A stretch of 20,833 bases of DNA from positions 1 to 20,833 of the IMG/VR virus record IMGVR_UViG_3300007345_000376. One strand, written 5' to 3'. Shown piece after piece: positions 3,655 to 20,701 of this stretch. The notes beneath the pieces were generated by a model. That model saw only the letters and a list, made by a program, of their open reading frames with translations, was not told where the DNA came from and did not search any database. Positions within the stretch are counted from its first letter, which is position 1. Each line of letters starts with the position of its first letter. Position numbers and translations under genes: made by a program. The stretch is from a virus.

Positions 3655-5681
3655 CCGACCTGACCCAAGAATATACCGACCGCCTGACTTACCAGAAGCA
3701 CGGTCTGCCGGATGGTTTTACATTACAGCGTGGCAGGGATGGCATGGTGCGTTATGCAGCGCCGCCCAGCCTAGTTGATCAATACCTCGTCAAACCCGAC
3801 ATATCAGGAGACATCGTTACACCAGACGCTGCTAGTGCGATTGACAGCGCGGTAAATTATATTGCCGACATGGGGCAAGGCCTGCTGCATGGCGCGGCTC
3901 GCGGGGCGCATGAAATCAATAGGATGATCCCCGGCGCCCCAGTGATTGAGGCGATGGGTGGTGCGGCACTTGATGCTGTAGGTGTAGACCCCACCATTGA
4001 CCCGCCGACCACCCTTCCCGGTCAATTGGCGTCAGGTCTGGGCCAAGCACTGCCGGGGATGATCCCCGCTATGAGGGCGCTGAAAATGGCTGGTTATGGC
4101 CCTGCTGTCGCTGACATTGTCGGTGGTGTCATCGGTGATTTCGCCACGTCAGGCAAGACTGAGGCCGACGGCATCGCGCAGATGATCGCCATGATCCCTA
4201 GCGACAAGGCACAGGAAGTATCACAGATCGTCAGCGACTTTGTGACCAGTGATAATGCGACAATCCAAGACTTCAACTCGCGCTTAGTCGGGGCGCTGCC
4301 GGGGGCTGTCTTAGGGCCGCTCGTTAATGGATTGGGCAGCTTGGTTGCTATGGCAAAGAATAGCGGCGCGGCACAGGATATTGTGACGATGATCAGCAGC
4401 CGATGGGCCGATGGCAAGTCGCCAATCCCTGTGGGGATGTCGATCGAGGATGTTGGTAAATTTGATCTAGCCCCAGATATGTCTGTCACTCCAGACATGA
4501 AATTTACCGACGCGGCAGCCCCTGACACCACTCTCCCGACGATGAAGGAAGTGCTGGATATTCGGTCGCAGCAGATGAAATTAAAGGCGGCCGACCGCGT
4601 TAGCCCATCAGGCGACAATATGTTTGATACAACGCCGGAGGGGTATAACAAATCACATGCCGCGCAAACGCCTGTGCCTGTGCCACGCGCCCCCGACGGC
4701 GTTAAACTTCCGCTTGGAAATCGAGCGCGGCCTGTCGCTGATATGACTGATCTTATCGCGGCGCGTCTGGCTGAGAGAATGACGCCATACCTTGGCACTG
4801 CTGCACAGTATTTTTATCATACCGGACCATTGGTCGATAAGGCAGTCGCACTGGGCATCCCAGAGGCGACGGCGCGTCAGCAACTCAAAGACTTCGCTCT
4901 TTATTATGCAGCGACCAGCCCCCGCACGATGACGGAACAGAACCTCAGAAATGCGTCACTGGCGGCGGCAAAAAGCAAAGCCGGTATTGATATAGCCGAG
5001 GTCGTCGGCCCTGGCAGTGGCGGCATCAATGAGCATGGATATCCGATGATGATCGGCGACAGCGGGATACACGGCAAGTTACTCAAAGATATAAAAGGGA
5101 ACCAAGGCATCAGCAATGATACCAACCCGAAGCCATACACATTTGCTGAGAACGTCGCCGGCAACTTTGACGGCGTGACGGTAGACACACATGCGATCAG
5201 GGGCGCCCTTGACGCGATGAACGAGATACAGCCGGGGTCAATCCCTGACGGGTTTATCAAGCCGGAATATCTCAAGGAATATAAAGCGGACCCGTCGAGG
5301 CTGAACCCAGCCACATGGCTGAACGACACATTGGGAAGCCAGAAGATCGCCGGCAAGGATATGCAGACGGAATATGCGGTATTCTCTGACATTTATCGCA
5401 AAGCTGCTGAGATACTTGGCGTGTCTCCGGCCGAAGCTCAGTCTCTCGGTTGGTTCGGTTCTGGCGATCGCACTGGCCTCGCGTCAGAATTCAAAACTGT
5501 GGTTGAACTAATCAATGATCGTATTGACGTCACGGCGCAACTGACCGGCCGAGACAAAGACACGATCTTTAAAGGGTTTATGGAAGGGAAGACACCCCTG
5601 CTGTCGATCGGTGGCGCGGGGCTATTGGCCGCCGGCGCCGACCAGCCTGAACTCAAGACGGGCAAGGAGGGCGTTAAATGA
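3651..5681 (+). CDS. Large internal virion protein with C-terminal VDTHxxR domain (676 aa)
   Basis: The 676-residue product begins with a short polar segment. Residues 55-140 are Gly/Ala/Pro-rich and hydrophobic (possible membrane-interacting helices), and residues 150-360 form a polar linker. From about residue 365 it changes to a compact domain: YAATSPRTM near 419, FAENVAGNF then VDTHAIR near 500-515, YAVFSDIYRKAAEILGV near 575-590, and WFGSGDRTGL soon after. I recall the same VDTH/Q-W-x-G-x-x-xTG pattern from domains of unknown function in phage polyvalent and internal virion proteins (DUF7178-like). The VDTHxxR string also resembles the catalytic Asp loop of endonuclease III-type DNA glycosylases. 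It starts inside the ATGA overlap with the preceding gene, and its own stop overlaps an ATG at 5678 as ATGA. It is probably ejected with DNA; its biochemical role is unknown. Confidence 0.6.
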   Translation: MTDLTQEYTDRLTYQKHGLPDGFTLQRGRDGMVRYAAPPSLVDQYLVKPDISGDIVTPDAASAIDSAVNYIADMGQGLLHGAARGAHEINRMIPGAPVIEAMGGAALDAVGVDPTIDPPTTLPGQLASGLGQALPGMIPAMRALKMAGYGPAVADIVGGVIGDFATSGKTEADGIAQMIAMIPSDKAQEVSQIVSDFVTSDNATIQDFNSRLVGALPGAVLGPLVNGLGSLVAMAKNSGAAQDIVTMISSRWADGKSPIPVGMSIEDVGKFDLAPDMSVTPDMKFTDAAAPDTTLPTMKEVLDIRSQQMKLKAADRVSPSGDNMFDTTPEGYNKSHAAQTPVPVPRAPDGVKLPLGNRARPVADMTDLIAARLAERMTPYLGTAAQYFYHTGPLVDKAVALGIPEATARQQLKDFALYYAATSPRTMTEQNLRNASLAAAKSKAGIDIAEVVGPGSGGINEHGYPMMIGDSGIHGKLLKDIKGNQGISNDTNPKPYTFAENVAGNFDGVTVDTHAIRGALDAMNEIQPGSIPDGFIKPEYLKEYKADPSRLNPATWLNDTLGSQKIAGKDMQTEYAVFSDIYRKAAEILGVSPAEAQSLGWFGSGDRTGLASEFKTVVELINDRIDVTAQLTGRDKDTIFKGFMEGKTPLLSIGGAGLLAAGADQPELKTGKEGVK

Positions 5682-5711
5682 CCTTTCACAAACCAGTACA
5701 ACTTTGGTACA

Positions 5712-5912
5712 ATGCTGATCATGCAAAAGATGCAGCAACCATTTCGCCCGTCGCATCTGCCGCCCATACCCAACGAGGTATGGGCGCAAAAGATGATCGA
5801 CGCCTGCAAGAAGCACAACGATGCTTTGGAGCGGCTCGGTTACGAGCGCGAGCAACCAGAGACAATGGAATACTGGTTGGCGCACTTCGACAAGCAAGAC
5901 AAACCCGATTAA
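5712..5912 (+). CDS. Small virion-region protein, start uncertain (66 aa)
   Basis: The frame 5712-5912 encodes a protein-like, helical, charged sequence (IPNEVWAQKMIDACKKHN then ERLGYEREQPETMEYW). The ATG with a good ribosome site (AAGGAGG at 5664-5670) and an ATGA overlap is at 5678, in another frame that runs to 5947. That other frame encodes a plausible first 25 residues and then an Arg/Ala-rich sequence that looks non-coding. Starts in the 5712 frame are ATGs at 5712, 5721 and 5730, none with a clear ribosome site. Options are re-initiation, a +1 frameshift joining the two frames between 5712 and 5760, or a one-base sequencing error. A perfect 10-bp hairpin at 5761-5786 lies inside the gene. 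No family recognised. Confidence 0.5.
   Translation: MLIMQKMQQPFRPSHLPPIPNEVWAQKMIDACKKHNDALERLGYEREQPETMEYWLAHFDKQDKPD
5761..5786 (+). repeat. Perfect 10-bp inverted repeat (RNA hairpin) inside a short gene
   Basis: CGCCCATACC (5761-5770) pairs without mismatch with GGTATGGGCG (5777-5786) around the six-base loop CAACGA. It is not followed by a T-run, so it is not a terminator on the plus strand. It lies about 85 bases after the well-placed ATG at 5678 and within the 5712-5912 reading frame, where it could act as a pause element, a frameshift stimulator or an RNase site. This is seen directly; the function is inference. Confidence 0.7.
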
Positions 5913-5939
5913 CAGGCGCCACGCGCCGGGAGAAGGCGC

Positions 5940-8816
5940 ATGGTTGAGAACATCCTAATACCTCAAGACGAGCCGCAATTGGAAATGCTGACGACGGCAA
6001 CGCCGCCTATTGACGTGCCGCCGGAAGATATTGCCCCGCTCGATGCCCCTGCTCCAGATCCCGCAGATAATATTGAAGTGGCTAGCATTGTCGATGTTGT
6101 AAAGGCTGGCGCGAAGGCTGTCATGGATAAAGGCAAGTCTGCCCTCGATGCTGTCGATAATGCAAAGCCGATCGGCCGCGACATCATCGATCAACCCGTC
6201 GAAAGGCGTGGCGATTTTTTCGTCATCCGCGACCCGTCAGACGCCGAGATGGCGACGTTTAATAACATCATTGACGTGATGTCGACCGGTGTTCCTTCGC
6301 CATCATCGGCGCAACGTGCCGCCGGAGTTCCTGTGGCGCGTATCAATTTTGAGCGGGTCAATACAGCCCAAGATGAAAAAGAGTTAATGGATCAGATACT
6401 GCAGACGTATAAAGATTATGTCGCGCAGCAGAAGCGGGGGTCAATTTCGTTTGACCAGATGATCCAGACGGCATCGGAAAAGAACCAGGATGGCGTATTT
6501 GACCTGATCCTCAATCGTGCTGTCGGGCAGCCGCTCGCCGCCGAGGATATCATCGCCGGCCGTATGGCATTGTGGTCACTGAATGCTGAAACTACCCGCC
6601 TCAACCAGTTGGTTCTCAATGGCACTGCGACGGCGGCAGACCGCCGCAATTTCATGGTGGCGATGTCGCTTGAAGGCAAGATGGCGGCCAACCTTCTTGG
6701 CGGTCAGGCCGAGGCCGCCAGGGCGACGGCTGCCAGCCGTATCGGCATCAACATCGACCCTGCCCGTGTAGAAGGCATCCAGAACGCCCTGTACGGGGCC
6801 ACAGAGGCCGATATCGACTATCTCGCCCACCAGTATGCCGTCTTGCCGACACAAGAAGCCAAGGCGCAATTTAGCCGTGGCATCTTGGGCAAGACCATAG
6901 ACGTGTGGCAAGAGGTATGGATGAATAGCCTGTTGTCAGCATTTACCACCCATGCCGTCAACGTAGGCGCCAACCTGGCCTTTGTCGGGGTGCAGATACC
7001 GGAGCGGTTCATTGCCGGCGCGATCGGGTCGGTCAGGCGCGGCATTACCAAGTCGACGGAGGGTGTGCGGATGGGCGAGGCCCTTAGTCTAATGCACGGC
7101 ATTCGCCAAGGGTTGCTGGAAGGCCTGCTATTTGCTGCCAAGGCATTTAAGGATGAGTCGCCGATCTCGGGTGGATTAAAGACGAAACTTGAGGCGCGAC
7201 AAAATAAGGCGATCACTGCCGAGAACTTTGGCCTTGATCCGGTCAGCACCGCCGGCAGGGCGACGGATCTGCTTGGTGTCGCCGTGCGGTTGCCGGGGCG
7301 GTTCCTTGTCAGTGAAGATGAGTTCTTCAAAGGTCTGTCTGGCCGGATGCAGCTTCATGCGCTGTCGTATCGTCGCATGATGGACGCCATAGATGGCGGG
7401 ATGCCGGTCGACATGGCCAAACGCCAGTATGAAATGAATATGCGTAATCCCGGCCAGGATTTGATCGATGAGGTCGGCAAGTTCTCCGAGATGGTGACCT
7501 TCCAGAAGGATCTTGAAGGTTTCTTGGGCAATATGCAGACGACGATGTCGCACCCTCTCGCCAAGATATTTGTGCCGTTCTTCAAAACACCGTCCAACAT
7601 TGTTAAGGCGGTGTCGGAGCGTTCACCATTAGCACTGATGATGCCGTCGTTTTACAAGGCTATCAAAGCCGGTGGCGCCGAGGCCGATGCAGCTTTGGCG
7701 AAGATCGCCCTTGGCACATCGGTCATGGCGACTTTTGCCACGTTTGCCGGCGGCGAGGCAGGCGATGACGTGATCATTACTGGGTCTGGCCCGACGGCGC
7801 CGGGGTCTATACAGGCGTTCCAACGTCAAGGCCTGCAACCGTATTCGTTTAATTTCAAACAGGACGATGGCACATACAAGTCAGTCAGTTATTCCCGGTT
7901 CGACCCGATATCGGGCGTGTTGGCAATCGCTGCCGACTATGCTGAATATGCCAAGTATGAGGATGACCCGTCAAAACTGGAACAGTTGACGATGGGCGCA
8001 TCGCTGGCGGCCGCCAACTATCTCGGTCAATTGCCAATGTTGCAGGGTATGGCGAACGTGTCAGAGATCATGGGGTCGTCGTACACCAGCACGGCAGAGC
8101 GGATGCAGGCGGCTATGAACCTCGTATCAAAGCAGGCAACTTCCACGGTTCTGGGGCCGATGTTCGGCGGATCTATGATGGCGAGTATCGAGCGGTATAA
8201 TGACCCGACGATCAACGATACTCGCGTCAACCCAGATACACCACCTATCATCAAGGGATTTTACGAAGCGCTGAACCAGGCGAAGTCGCGTAATCCCCTC
8301 TTCGCCAAAGATCTGCCGCCAAAACTCAACTTGTGGGGTGAGCAGATGCAGGCCGGCTATGGCGAGGCATGGGAGATGGTGTCGCCGATCCGCATCAAGG
8401 ATGCCGCATATAATGCCGTCGATCAGGAAATCGAGCAACTGTCGTTTGTCTTGGGTTCATCCCTGACCATGCCGTCACGAAAGATTGATGGCGTGGGCCT
8501 CGAGCCGGAGCAATACAACCAGCTTATTACGCACATGAATATTGAAACGATCCACGGCAAGACGATGAAGGAAGAGATGCTCGATACTGTCCTGTCTGCG
8601 GATTATCAGCGCATGGGTGTGGATGACAAGGTTAAGGAACTGCGCGACATCATGTCAGAATACCGGGATAAGGCCGAGGCAATCGTTATCAGATCAAACC
8701 CCGGCTTGGCGGCCGACGTCGAGATTAACAAGCTGCCATACGAGGAACGGAAAATGATGAAGTCGGGCGGGAATAGCGATGGACTGCTGGGCAAAATCCA
8801 GCAAATGGTGGAATAA
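5940..8816 (+). CDS. Large ejected internal virion protein with LPD38-like region, T7 gp16 position (958 aa)
   Basis: A 958-residue protein in the place of T7 gp16, just before the tail fibre. The first 70 residues are Pro/Asp-rich and disordered. Residues 100-330 are helical and polar. From about 330 there are amphipathic and hydrophobic helices (e.g. LLSAFTTHAVNVGANLAFVG). The region 540-670 reads FVPFFKTPSNIV, then a hydrophobic helix, ITGSGPT, LQPYSF and YSRFDPISG. I recall this FxRTPxNI ... ITGxGP ... QPYS ... YxRxDP signature from large polyvalent protein-associated domain 38 (LPD38), common in ejected podovirus proteins. The C-terminus is helical with many Met and Lys. No lytic transglycosylase motif like that at the N-terminus of T7 gp16 is apparent. 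The start at 5940 has a GGGAGAAGG ribosome site at 5928-5936. A role in the trans-envelope DNA channel is inferred. Confidence 0.7.
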   Translation: MVENILIPQDEPQLEMLTTATPPIDVPPEDIAPLDAPAPDPADNIEVASIVDVVKAGAKAVMDKGKSALDAVDNAKPIGRDIIDQPVERRGDFFVIRDPSDAEMATFNNIIDVMSTGVPSPSSAQRAAGVPVARINFERVNTAQDEKELMDQILQTYKDYVAQQKRGSISFDQMIQTASEKNQDGVFDLILNRAVGQPLAAEDIIAGRMALWSLNAETTRLNQLVLNGTATAADRRNFMVAMSLEGKMAANLLGGQAEAARATAASRIGINIDPARVEGIQNALYGATEADIDYLAHQYAVLPTQEAKAQFSRGILGKTIDVWQEVWMNSLLSAFTTHAVNVGANLAFVGVQIPERFIAGAIGSVRRGITKSTEGVRMGEALSLMHGIRQGLLEGLLFAAKAFKDESPISGGLKTKLEARQNKAITAENFGLDPVSTAGRATDLLGVAVRLPGRFLVSEDEFFKGLSGRMQLHALSYRRMMDAIDGGMPVDMAKRQYEMNMRNPGQDLIDEVGKFSEMVTFQKDLEGFLGNMQTTMSHPLAKIFVPFFKTPSNIVKAVSERSPLALMMPSFYKAIKAGGAEADAALAKIALGTSVMATFATFAGGEAGDDVIITGSGPTAPGSIQAFQRQGLQPYSFNFKQDDGTYKSVSYSRFDPISGVLAIAADYAEYAKYEDDPSKLEQLTMGASLAAANYLGQLPMLQGMANVSEIMGSSYTSTAERMQAAMNLVSKQATSTVLGPMFGGSMMASIERYNDPTINDTRVNPDTPPIIKGFYEALNQAKSRNPLFAKDLPPKLNLWGEQMQAGYGEAWEMVSPIRIKDAAYNAVDQEIEQLSFVLGSSLTMPSRKIDGVGLEPEQYNQLITHMNIETIHGKTMKEEMLDTVLSADYQRMGVDDKVKELRDIMSEYRDKAEAIVIRSNPGLAADVEINKLPYEERKMMKSGGNSDGLLGKIQQMVE

Positions 8817-16980: not shown

Positions 16981-17934
16981 TCAGGACACTTTCTTGATCG
17001 TGAGGGTTGACTGCCGCTTGGAATAAGCCGGCTTGGCTGGCGTCACTTTTTCAGGTTGCGCCTGGTAGTGACGCATCGGCCATTTCACCTCGTAGTCGCC
17101 GATGCGACCAGTTTCATGGTTGCCCAGCAGTTCCTTCAGCACCAACTCAACGTCATCCTTAGTGGCATCACACGCTTTCTTCGCCTGCGATGCGGCGTGG
17201 TGCGCCTCTACCAGTTCCAAAATATCGACATCATCGATGGCGGCCGGCAGATTAATCACCGGCTCGCTATTATCGACTGTCGGCCAGATAATATCGCAGT
17301 CGGCTGAACTCTCGGCGGGGTAATATTCCCGCTCTTCCAAGCGCCGCTCGAAATCCAAAACGGCGTCGGCAATCTGTGTCATCAGCTTGGGGTTGGTGGG
17401 ATAGACGAAGATCCGCAACTCGACGCCGCCATACAGCACCCCGATCGCGGCATACGACAACCCGGTACACATCATGCAACCCTGCACCTGCACCGGGCCA
17501 CGGAACGGCGCCGGCACCAACTCAGCATCGGCGCGGGTCAGCTTGCTCTCCATCACAATGTCGCTGTTGAGCGTGACCGCGTCGGCCCCAATGACATAGA
17601 TGCCATTGGCAGGGTCATGCTTGATGACCTGACCACTGGCATGCCCTACCCCATCGAGGCTGGCGGCCAGCGGCAGCGTCGGGTGACTGAACCCCTGCTT
17701 TGGCTCGTACCATCCGTCCAGCCCCAGACGGTCTGCCATCTCTTGCATAATGACCGGCTCGAGGCGGTTGCCCCAACCCGTGGCCTCGTTGCCTTCCCAA
17801 TCAATCGGGGTGCCATCCCGCTCCATCAGGCACCGGTTCAATGCATCGTTTCTCGTTGACCATGGCGATACGCCCATGATTGCGGGTAGCACGGAACATG
17901 ATGCGTGACGACCATCTGTTAGTTTACCTACCAT
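16981..17934 (-). CDS. YqaJ-type viral recombinase / lambda-exonuclease-like nuclease (317 aa)
   Basis: The protein has the motifs of the YqaJ family (PD-(D/E)XK fold 5'-3' exonucleases): SVLPAIMGVSPWST (14-26), GNRLEPVIMQEM with Glu58, LAASLDG with the metal-binding Asp93, VMESKL with Glu128 and Lys130, and PVQVQGCMMCTG with Gln148/Gln150. A basic C-terminal extension (about 240-317) ends KRQSTLTIKKVS. Such enzymes resect DNA ends for recombination with an annealing protein or process replication intermediates. No annealing partner (RecT/Erf/beta) is seen in the window. The ATG at 17932-17934 has AGGAG about ten bases upstream and lies inside the end of the preceding 57-residue gene, so translation is coupled. 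Length is normal for the family. Confidence 0.88.
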   Translation of the reverse strand: MVGKLTDGRHASCSVLPAIMGVSPWSTRNDALNRCLMERDGTPIDWEGNEATGWGNRLEPVIMQEMADRLGLDGWYEPKQGFSHPTLPLAASLDGVGHASGQVIKHDPANGIYVIGADAVTLNSDIVMESKLTRADAELVPAPFRGPVQVQGCMMCTGLSYAAIGVLYGGVELRIFVYPTNPKLMTQIADAVLDFERRLEEREYYPAESSADCDIIWPTVDNSEPVINLPAAIDDVDILELVEAHHAASQAKKACDATKDDVELVLKELLGNHETGRIGDYEVKWPMRHYQAQPEKVTPAKPAYSKRQSTLTIKKVS

Positions 17935-18695: not shown

Positions 18696-19370
18696 TCATG
18701 TCCCCCTTTTCATTATATTTGACACCTGTGACGGATGCCACACCTCGCCGCCCCTCGGTGTCTTGATGCCCCTGTTCTGCAATGCTCTCGCAATTTCGCG
18801 CAGTGTTGTAGCAGCACCGCTTTCAATCAGTGAAGAAATAATAGGTTTAACGTTAGAAGCATATTTGTCGGCCTTTTGAACCTTTACCTTATTCCCGGCC
18901 TTACTGCCGATCTCTGGGGTTGGTGAGCCGAGTTCCGCGCCCCGCGCTTTGAGGGCGGCCAAGGCCGCCTTTGTACGCTCCGAAATAACCTCGCGCTCAT
19001 GCTCGGCGACGGCCGCCAGGATATGGATCGTCAGCTTGTTCGCTTCAGGCATATCGCAGCAGATGAAGTCGATACGATCTTCCATCAACTTGGTGACAAA
19101 GTGAACATTGCGGTATAACCGATCGAGCTTGGCGACGATCAATGTTGCCTTGTGTTTCTTACAGGCGGCGATCGCTGCTTCCAATTGCGGCCGGTGCTTT
19201 TTGCCAGATCCGCTTTCGACTTCGACAAATTCTTCGACCAATGACCAGTTCCCGCCGTTCAGATATTCAGCCACGGTCTTGCGCTGGGCATCGAGGCCGA
19301 GGCCTGACTGTCCCTGCCGCAAGGTGCTGACCCTGTAATATGCTACGAACTTACCATTGTGCTGTGCCAC
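18696..19370 (-). CDS. Serine site-specific recombinase / resolvase family (224 aa)
   Basis: The N-terminal catalytic domain has YYRVSTLRQG (11-20) with nucleophile Ser15, LDAQR (26-30), AKLDRLYRN (80-88) with Asp83, Arg84 and Arg87, and the long helix AEHEREVISERTKAALAALK. The C-terminal part (about 165-224) has TTLREIARALQNRGIKTPRG followed by W-HPSQVSNIMKRG, the DNA-binding helix-turn-helix seen at the end of many phage and transposon serine recombinases. At 224 residues it is longer than a simple resolvase (about 185) and much shorter than a large serine integrase (over 400). Likely roles are resolution or inversion; attachment by this enzyme alone is unlikely but not excluded. The GTG start at 19368-19370 has AAGGGTG upstream. 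It is the second gene after the divergent control region. Confidence 0.85.
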   Translation of the reverse strand: MAQHNGKFVAYYRVSTLRQGQSGLGLDAQRKTVAEYLNGGNWSLVEEFVEVESGSGKKHRPQLEAAIAACKKHKATLIVAKLDRLYRNVHFVTKLMEDRIDFICCDMPEANKLTIHILAAVAEHEREVISERTKAALAALKARGAELGSPTPEIGSKAGNKVKVQKADKYASNVKPIISSLIESGAATTLREIARALQNRGIKTPRGGEVWHPSQVSNIMKRGT

Positions 19371-19382
19371 GATCGGTCACCC

Positions 19383-19598
19383 TTAATTTGAAAATGCCAA
19401 AACGACGATCTCTTTAATTTCCTTCAGCCGGAGATTTTTACGGCTGTTGATCTTCTGCACGATCTCTTCAGATATTGTCTGGCTGAAGTGCGGCTTGAAG
19501 ATCCATCCCTTGCGACTGCTGAACAGCCAGCCAACCTGGTGAAAGTTTACAATCACCTTGTGCATCCCGACGTCTGATCTTTGAAATGCAATGGACAT
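19383..19598 (-). CDS. Small basic protein, first gene of the leftward operon (71 aa)
   Basis: The ATG at 19596-19598 has GAGAGGAG (about 19606-19613) upstream, and the leftward promoter-like elements lie 29-58 bases before it. The product is basic and mixed alpha/beta (KVIVNFHQVGWLFSSRKGWI, then EEIVQKINSRKNLRLKEIKE). It is 12 bases from the recombinase start and probably in the same transcript. As a small basic protein before a serine recombinase it could be a recombination-direction or DNA-binding factor, but it has no recognised helix-turn-helix and I cannot assign a family. Confidence 0.6.
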   Translation of the reverse strand: MSIAFQRSDVGMHKVIVNFHQVGWLFSSRKGWIFKPHFSQTISEEIVQKINSRKNLRLKEIKEIVVLAFSN

Positions 19599-19626
19599 TT
19601 AATCGCTCCTCTCTCGGTATGCCCAT

Positions 19627-19656
19627 CTTGTACCAATCTTGTACCATCACTGTCAA
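19627..19656 (-). promoter_or_regulatory. Leftward promoter candidate for the recombinase operon
   Basis: Reading the minus strand, TTGACA (19651-19656) is a perfect sigma70 -35 box, and TACAAG (19627-19632, four of six matches to TATAAT) lies 18 bases downstream; spacing 17 gives GTACAA. The -10 overlaps the tandem 11-base repeat ATCTTGTACCA (19625-19635, 19636-19646), so a protein bound there would block it. It reads toward the 71-residue gene. Confidence 0.6.
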
Positions 19657-19726
19657 GTACCCAAATGGTACTAAAATAGTACAAGTCGGTTCTTGACAAA
19701 AAAATCGTCCTCGTCCATAGATGTAC
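19630..19726. promoter_or_regulatory. Operator array: six GTAC-centred sites, several exactly 11 bp apart
   Basis: GTAC occurs at 19630, 19641, 19657, 19668, 19679 and 19723. The distances are 11, 16, 11, 11 and 44 (four times 11) bases. Flanks extend the sites toward T(T/A)GTACCA in either orientation: TTGTACCA at the first two, TAGTACCA and TTGTACT on the minus strand at the fourth and fifth, AAGTACCC at the third. The third and fourth form GTACC-5-GGTAC; the fourth and fifth form GTACTA-3-TAGTAC. They cover both promoter candidates. Chance alone would give less than one GTAC in this length. The array looks like binding sites for a ribbon-helix-helix repressor, whose gene begins at 19768. 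Confidence 0.65.
19693..19721 (+). promoter_or_regulatory. Rightward promoter candidate for the regulator/RuvC operon
   Basis: TTGACA (19693-19698) is a perfect -35 box. A weak -10-like CATAGA (19716-19721, three of six matches) lies 17 bases downstream. One GTAC site (19723) overlaps the likely start of transcription. The divergent leftward -35 is only 36 bases away, so both promoters share one control region. The -10 match is poor, so an activator or a different consensus may apply. Confidence 0.5.
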
Positions 19727-19767
19727 AGTTCTCAAACGGACCCACACACAACATCTAGGAATTTGAC

Positions 19768-19962
19768 GTGGCAAAAAAGATCCAAACCCAACTCTGGTTA
19801 TCGGCTTCGACACACGCCGCGCTAAAAAAAGTCGCGGCCAGAGAAGGTTTGTCGATGACGCAACTGGCCGACGACATCCTGACCCAGTATCTGCCGCAGC
19901 GTGACGCTGACGCCATCGATCGGCTCAAGCGGATCGCCCAGCTTGCGGGTCAGACAGCATGA
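19768..19962 (+). CDS. Ribbon-helix-helix regulator, Arc/CopG-like (64 aa)
   Basis: The GTG at 19768 follows TAGGA (19756-19760) at 7 bases. The short product has a likely beta strand (KKIQTQLWL, residues 3-11), a helix (THAALKKVAAREG), the turn LSM and a second helix (TQLADDILTQYL), the standard ribbon-helix-helix arrangement of dimeric phage and plasmid repressors. Residues on the strand contact DNA in such proteins. The last 20 residues form a charged helix. It lies directly downstream of the GTAC array, so autoregulation and control of the divergent operon are likely. The stop overlaps the RuvC-like gene by ATGA. The family call is from pattern, not from alignment. Confidence 0.75.
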   Translation: MAKKIQTQLWLSASTHAALKKVAAREGLSMTQLADDILTQYLPQRDADAIDRLKRIAQLAGQTA

Positions 19963-20432
19963 GCGGCGTGATCGGGATCGACCCCGGCCTCAGTGGCGCG
20001 ATCGCTCATTACTTTGATGGCGTCATCGCCACCTATGATATGCCGACCTTCGCTGTTACCAAAGGCAAGAAGATCCGACGCGAAGTCGACGCGGTGCAGA
20101 TGGCAACTATCATCGCAAATCATCAACCGGATCATCTAATCCTCGAGCAGGTCAGCGCGATGCCGGGTCAAGGCGTCACGTCGATGTTTAACTTTGGCAG
20201 GTCGTATGGCGCCGTCGAAGGCGTCGTTAGTGCGCTTCGCATTCCCCTCACCCGCGTCACGCCGCAGCGGTGGAAGTCGGCCATGCACCTGTCGTCCGAC
20301 AAGGGCGAGAGTCGCCGACGCGCCACGCAATTATTCCCAGACTATGCAGATCAATGGTCCCGCGTAAAAGACGACGGCCGGGCCGAGGCGGCGCTGCTCG
20401 CATTCTATTTGGCAAAAGGTTTTAACCAGTGA
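19959..20432 (+). CDS. RuvC-like Holliday junction resolvase / phage crossover nuclease (157 aa)
   Basis: The protein starts VIGIDPGLSGAIAHY (4-18), with the first acidic residue Asp8. LILEQVSAMPGQG (60-72) contains the second (Glu63), and DDGRAEAALLAFY (138-150) contains the third pair (Asp138/Asp139 and Glu143) of the RuvC/RNase-H fold. SMFNFGRSYGAVEGVV and VTPQRWKSAMHL are typical of phage and bacterial RuvC-like proteins. Such enzymes cut four-way and branched DNA to help packaging or recombination. Length 157 is normal. It begins in the ATGA overlap with the regulator and ends in a GTGA overlap with the next gene, so it is in the same operon. Confidence 0.88.
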   Translation: MSGVIGIDPGLSGAIAHYFDGVIATYDMPTFAVTKGKKIRREVDAVQMATIIANHQPDHLILEQVSAMPGQGVTSMFNFGRSYGAVEGVVSALRIPLTRVTPQRWKSAMHLSSDKGESRRRATQLFPDYADQWSRVKDDGRAEAALLAFYLAKGFNQ

Positions 20433-20701
20433 ACCGCTCCGACATCCTGGCGCAAGCCGACGAACTCATCACAGAGACACGCGCCGCGCAGCATGGTGAC
20501 GCGGCAAAGCAATTCCATAAGATCGCAGACCGATGGGCAAATATCCTTGGCGTCGATGTCAGCGCCGAGGAAGTCATCCTGATGCTGATCGACCTCAAGA
20601 TTGTCAGAACTATTCACGCACCCAGACGCGCCGATAACTGGCGCGACATCATCGGCTATGCCGCACTGGGCGCAGAGATTGCAAAGGCAACAGACGAATG
20701 A
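20429..20701 (+). CDS. DUF6378-like phage protein (90 aa)
   Basis: The GTG at 20429 overlaps the RuvC-like stop (GTGA). The product (MNRSDILAQADELITETRAA, QHGDAAKQFHKIADRWANIL, EVILMLIDLKIVRTIHAPRR, then DNWRDIIGYAALGAEIAK) matches the pattern I recall for DUF6378: an RxxxYG/QHGDA motif followed by an IADLW/RWANIL helix, VxLMLxxLKxxR and DNWxDxxGYAALG. The family is widespread in phages and may be related to MazG-like helical folds, but no reaction is established. Catalytic residues cannot be assigned. The stop overlaps the next start (ATGA at 20698-20701). Confidence 0.8.
   Translation: MNRSDILAQADELITETRAAQHGDAAKQFHKIADRWANILGVDVSAEEVILMLIDLKIVRTIHAPRRADNWRDIIGYAALGAEIAKATDE

Follow-up and report, generated by a model that had tools for sequence, protein, structure and literature searches.

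The whole stretch of DNA analyzed here, referred to as the window, is a 20,833-base viral contig that represents a fragment of a podovirus-type phage. The genes of the window diverge at a single place, an AT-rich junction that is occupied by an array of six GTAC-centred sites (Table 1). The left arm begins with the gene of a 71-aa orphan protein; it is followed by the gene of a short serine recombinase, by several small genes and by the gene of a YqaJ/RecE-like exonuclease. The right arm begins with the gene of a 64-aa ribbon-helix-helix (RHH) protein, after which come genes for a RuvC-like Holliday junction resolvase and a DUF6378 protein. An overlapping contig (L001) extends this arm by a 200-aa protein and then a 703-aa protein with an AAA_25 domain. 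In a third contig of the phage the right arm runs on via terminase-like genes to the structural genes, in one direction throughout. The right (replication) arm also encodes an HTH_36 protein.

Table 1. Position of genes, putative promoters and GTAC sites in the window.
Feature	Position	Strand	Remarks
YqaJ/RecE-like exonuclease, left arm	16981-17934	-	Anchor for locating relatives
Short serine recombinase (resolvase domain), left arm	18696-19370	-	PF00239 E=7e-29; partial PF07508 match
71-aa orphan, first left-arm gene	19383-19598	-	No family
Putative leftward promoter	19627-19656	-	By eye; TTGACA (19656-19651), 18-nt spacer, TACAAG (19632-19627)
GTAC site 1 (CTTGTACC)	19630-19633		Over leftward -10 TACAAG
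GTAC site 2 (CTTGTACC)	19641-19644		In leftward promoter spacer; 11 bp from site 1
GTAC site 3 (AAGTACCC)	19657-19660		Abuts leftward -35 TTGACA
GTAC site 4 (TGGTACTA)	19668-19671		11 bp from site 3
GTAC site 5 (TAGTACAA)	19679-19682		11 bp from site 4; ~12 bp before rightward -35
Putative rightward promoter	19694-19722	+	By eye; TTGACA (19694-19699), 17-nt spacer, weak -10 CATAGA
GTAC site 6 (ATGTACAG)	19723-19726		Between rightward -10 and presumed start; follows site 5 by 44 bp (4 x 11)
RHH protein, 64 aa	19768-19962	+	GTG start preceded by AGGA; would bind the array and repress its own gene
RuvC-like Holliday junction resolvase, second right-arm gene	19959-20432	+	phrog_1770 E=9e-37
DUF6378 protein, right arm	20429-20701	+	PF19905 E=5e-26

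The GTAC array and the promoters of the junction

The six-site array is real and not a product of chance. All positions and the spacings of 11, 16, 11, 11 and 44 bp are exactly those claimed in the initial annotation, and the tandem repeats reported there (CCCATCTTGTA/CCAATCTTGTA and ATCTTGTA) are present as well. Over the window as a whole GTAC is not frequent, with 34 copies found and 39 expected. Six copies within 97 bp were never attained in 1000 Markov resamples of the window, the maximum being five; these resamples contained 0-2 pairs of GTAC at a distance of exactly 11 bp, as compared to four in the window. When the AT-rich junction was resampled alone, six or more GTAC occurred in 13 of 20,000 cases. 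The pattern GTACN7GTAC is found four times in the window versus an expectation of 0.06, and three of these four copies lie inside the array. The direct repeat with a lag of 11 bp reaches a z of 8.1 at the junction. The array furthermore contains a 21-nt imperfect inverted repeat (19627-19647 versus 19665-19685, 81%), and its sequence is identical in three contigs of one phage, namely the window, L001 and L002. A search of the window against Rfam gave no match.

The fourth GTACN7GTAC (GTACAACTTTGGTAC, 5696-5710) is found where two overlapping reading frames of 89 aa and 66 aa begin (window 5678-5947), in a region that is identical in a second contig. It was set aside as an operator and left out of the operator count because it is located in a coding start, with a chance expectation of 0.06.

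Inspection of the junction by eye suggests one promoter in each direction. Sites 1 and 2 fall within the putative leftward promoter, which borders on site 3; the putative rightward promoter is preceded by sites 3-5, and site 6 lies between its -10 element and the start. Neither of them was among the candidates of a consensus promoter scan, because the rule of the scan is too strict for their -10 elements. The scan instead contained another rightward candidate within the array (CTGTCA-16-TAAAAT at 19650-19677). For both reasons we treat the placement of the promoters as provisional. With the promoters placed in this way the array has the arrangement of an Arc-type operator, in which a promoter is associated with half-sites that are palindromic or paired and separated by about 11 bp.

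The ribbon-helix-helix protein and its relatives

The gene at 19768 had initially been read as encoding an RHH protein, and this identity is borne out by profile, fold and family context. The Pfam search returned a FitA-like RHH (E=6e-5) with 23.3 bits, which is below the curated cut-off of 27, and PHROGs returned an Arc-like repressor (E=0.002). Profile matches in the PDB were EndoAI and CopG. The Pfam family Arc (PF03869) did not match the protein of the window and matched 4 of the 39 aligned members. An AlphaFold model, built from the alignment of 39 sequences, has a pLDDT of 92.5; it comprises an extended N-terminus and helices 13-26 and 30-63, the strand being formed only in the dimer, which is outside the model. 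The top Foldseek matches of this model included the CopG-DNA, SvtR and Arc-operator (1par) complexes with probabilities of 0.94-0.99, despite E-values above 0.05 for this short fold. Judged from the model the assignment of the predicted fold is sound; we do not claim membership in a named Pfam family. Homologues of the 64-aa protein were found in IMG/VR only in the same phage, and none were found in phages, plasmids or genomes.

Relatives of the phage were located through the exonuclease. A first scan yielded 59 loci; a second yielded at least 586 viral contigs, and 80 of these were retained. An RHH gene is encoded opposite the exonuclease strand in all 39 loci that extend 4.5 kb or more upstream, according to a profile search in which the profile was iterated on the same loci and a first pass from ten seeds already recovered most of them. 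In 65 of the 72 measured loci the RHH gene directly borders the divergent gap, which has a median length of 165 bp. Hence the junction, which had been described for this phage as divergent with the RHH gene beside it, has this gene as a fixed neighbor across the phage group. The closest cultured relative by exonuclease is the Methylophilales phage MEP301 (L010). Its gp52 (32729-32890), annotated as hypothetical, is an RHH protein according to the group profile and, as in the window, is located opposite the exonuclease strand; however, MEP301 lacks a GTAC array, and its RHH gene does not border a comparably compact junction. The study of MEP301 reported no PF07508 recombinase domain in this phage (PMC8024684), in keeping with the lytic appearance of the group described below.

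A comparison of GTAC spacing across relatives had been proposed as a check, and the array was kept by no relative examined; the GTAC motif is therefore specific to the phage of the window. The initial annotation had counted a gene kept without its GTAC sites as evidence against its proposal. This is literally what the relatives show, but their RHH proteins are only 14-33% identical to that of the window and differ in the predicted DNA-contacting strand, so that a change in the motif is expected. In a tree of the RHH proteins the copy of the window is not firmly placed.

The 11-bp spacing, on the other hand, extends to the group. The lag of 11 bp was set beforehand from the window and then applied to the relatives. 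Direct repeats with this lag are enriched in their junctions with a combined Z of 7.7 (32 loci), the next best lag being 18 with 4.3; over 24 subfamily representatives the combined Z is 7.0. The enrichment is also evident when compared with other positions in the respective contigs (P 0.0002), and neither the stretches upstream of starts nor the AT-matched windows of these contigs exhibited an 11-bp signal. The junctions of the relatives had a mean z of 1.34 versus 0.11 for divergent junctions of unrelated phages (Mann-Whitney p 0.0012), the control contigs having originally been fetched for GTAC patterns and junctions with GTACN7GTAC having been excluded. The signal originates mainly from two RHH subgroups with a mean z of 2.6, versus 0.7-0.8 in the others, of which the largest is weak (Mann-Whitney p 0.002; the split was made post hoc, after the data had been seen). 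Inverted repeats were not significantly enriched in the junctions of the relatives (Fisher p 0.40), and palindrome pairs in them showed no preference for 11 bp. Since many of the repeated units resemble TATA or GATAT, e.g. TATCAATAAGA/TATCGATTGGA in L127, promoter elements may contribute to the signal.

Other motifs are present in individual junctions. In the largest RHH subgroup (L316, L296, L327, L331, L335) an inverted repeat TAGGG-N5-CCCTA is located between the presumed promoters; it is possibly the operator of this subgroup. A near-perfect 30-bp palindrome, TGCTATCAGTGTTATATAACATTGAAAGCA, occurs upstream of the RHH gene in L314 and L301 (p 0.005 for L314).

Function of the array

The data suggest that the array is probably a multi-site autoregulatory operator of the adjacent 64-residue RHH protein, with half-sites that are specific to the lineage, and that binding of this protein would tune both early arms. 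In this scheme each site, palindromic and centred on GTAC, would be contacted by one RHH dimer through the N-terminal strand of the protein; dimers on neighboring sites would be separated by one helical turn (11 bp) and bind cooperatively. Since sites 1-3 cover the putative leftward promoter, binding there is expected to shut off the recombination arm with the 71-aa gene, the recombinase and the exonuclease. Sites 3-6 flank the putative rightward promoter, with sites 3-5 just upstream of it, and for this reason the RHH protein would limit its own transcription as well as that of the rightward replication arm. Its role would be the control of timing and dosage of the two early arms in a lytic infection.

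The initial annotation had envisaged a switch without a CI-type repressor. Understood as a lysogeny switch this is not supported: the exonuclease is found in at least 586 viral contigs versus three matches, all of them MAG contigs, in 84,980 bacterial and archaeal genomes, which were scanned non-exhaustively with short peptide patterns, so that the related prophages of a temperate immunity switch were not seen in these genomes. The short length of the recombinase and the lack of any recognised integrase-type gene point the same way. Because only these three genome contigs carry the exonuclease, the phage group looks lytic, although collections of this kind fall short of proving a lifestyle.

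It is unlikely that the array is bound by another regulator of the phage, the RHH gene being an unrelated neighbor. The 71-residue protein would be one candidate for such a regulator; its gene is the first in the left arm, equally near to the array, and like the array it is found only in the phage of the window. However, a single-sequence model of this protein is composed mostly of strands (four strands and two helices) with no clear HTH or other DNA-binding fold. Furthermore, no counterpart was found in the relatives, whereas the RHH gene occupies the junction there. The other candidate is the HTH_36 protein of the right arm, but HTH_36 proteins beside helicases are usually replication proteins.

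GTAC arrays also occur in other elements. A scan of viral contigs for the GTAC pattern produced 115 stretches of mixed nature, including arrays in initiator-like genes, simple 11-mer tandem repeats and others; a scan for TGGTACAA pairs produced 93 stretches, again of mixed kinds. An enrichment of RHH genes beside the arrays was not shown systematically among the 115 stretches, with one RHH-like neighbor detected by eye (L027), and none was seen in the 21 of the 93 TGGTACAA-pair stretches that were read by eye. In L027 five GTAC-containing 11-bp tandem repeats (GGTACTCGTTA, 1865-1912) are positioned directly upstream of the RHH-like ORF 1920-2333. In unrelated elements, 11-bp GTAC arrays are found inside initiator-like genes as well as beside integrases or primases. 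Because of these unrelated settings the GTAC motif alone cannot identify its binder.

Iteron-like GTACCGAATCGGTAC arrays with about 10-13 GTAC were found in other phages (L014, L016, L031, L036, L040, L064, L065, L077, L097, L101, L112), mostly within the reading frame that immediately precedes a gene for a DnaB-like helicase; they are likely replication origins. In L213, L214 and L251 a TGGTACAA array, which may be an origin, is flanked by a primase-helicase-like gene and by an ORF similar to DnaA domain IV.

The recurrence of GTACN7GTAC arrays in other phages, inside initiator-like genes that precede genes for DnaB-like helicases, argues for an iteron-like replication origin also in the window, where an initiator would bind and the overlap with the promoters would be secondary; the junction does face the replication arm. 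We nevertheless consider this interpretation quite improbable. The array is intergenic, on the putative promoter elements, and no initiator gene adjoins it; the junctions of the relatives do not keep it; and the GC skew turns near 12.7 kb, tracking gene direction, and not at the array.

An even poorer explanation, which we judge very unlikely, is that the array is the resolution site of the neighboring serine recombinase, which would at the same time regulate the promoter of its own gene. This gene is only 0.25 kb from the array, and resolvases often bind beside their own gene. Known resolvase sites, however, are longer inverted repeats and not 4-bp cores at 11 bp, and the 71-aa gene intervenes between array and recombinase. 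Moreover, some relatives have serine recombinases that are 50-55% identical to that of the window and yet have no GTAC array. Binding of a host regulator such as LexA is scarcely credible: the 11-bp spacing is shared with the LexA box of alphaproteobacteria, GTTCN7GTTC, which differs by one base per half-site, but this box, which may not be that of the host, is absent from the window, and six sites exceed an ordinary LexA box.

Taken as a single locus, the autoregulatory RHH operator is most likely an ordinary kind of phage control element in an unusually elaborate form. A broader view is possible, although we hold it with considerable doubt. A very large and mostly uncultured podovirus-type group might maintain a fixed RHH gene at the junction and the 11-bp spacing, while half-site and contact strand are re-invented in each lineage; the array of the window, the most elaborate one seen, might then exert a graded, concentration-reading control over the opposing arms. 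The abundant uncultured group in any case gains a candidate for a master regulator that escapes annotation, its MEP301 equivalent being labeled hypothetical. It also offers natural pairs of RHH protein and operator for the study of joint changes in repressor and operator.

Comparison with known systems

The ParR-parC systems of plasmids R1 and pB171 resemble the junction in that an RHH protein acts on arrayed direct repeats of 10-11 bp situated close to a promoter (PMC9426499). ParR of R1 requires two 11-bp repeats, while a clostridial ParR uses 8-bp repeats that are 3 bp apart (PMC9426499). In contrast to parC, the site in the window is a divergent early junction of a phage. No gene for a ParM-type ATPase or filament was recognised in the surveyed arms; the neighbors are the RuvC-like, DUF6378, recombinase and exonuclease genes.

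Dimers of the RHH protein RelB bind to adjacent 12-bp palindromic half-sites, which contain TTGTA, and repress their own promoter (PMC2812701). Adjacent palindromic sites are common to both systems, as is the autoregulation that we propose for the protein of the window. Unlike in the case of RelB, no toxin gene was recognised beside the RHH gene, the next gene being the RuvC-like resolvase.

Arc of phage P22 is likewise a small RHH protein of a phage, and its operator complex 1par is among the fold matches of the protein from the window. Arc operators have half-sites about 11 bp apart, and Arc binds to a single operator with two half-sites. The window differs from this in having six sites over two divergent promoters, and its protein has no Pfam Arc score. 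A symmetric dimer on each GTAC site, with its neighbors one turn apart, would fit with these examples, because RHH proteins are known to act on phased short sites.
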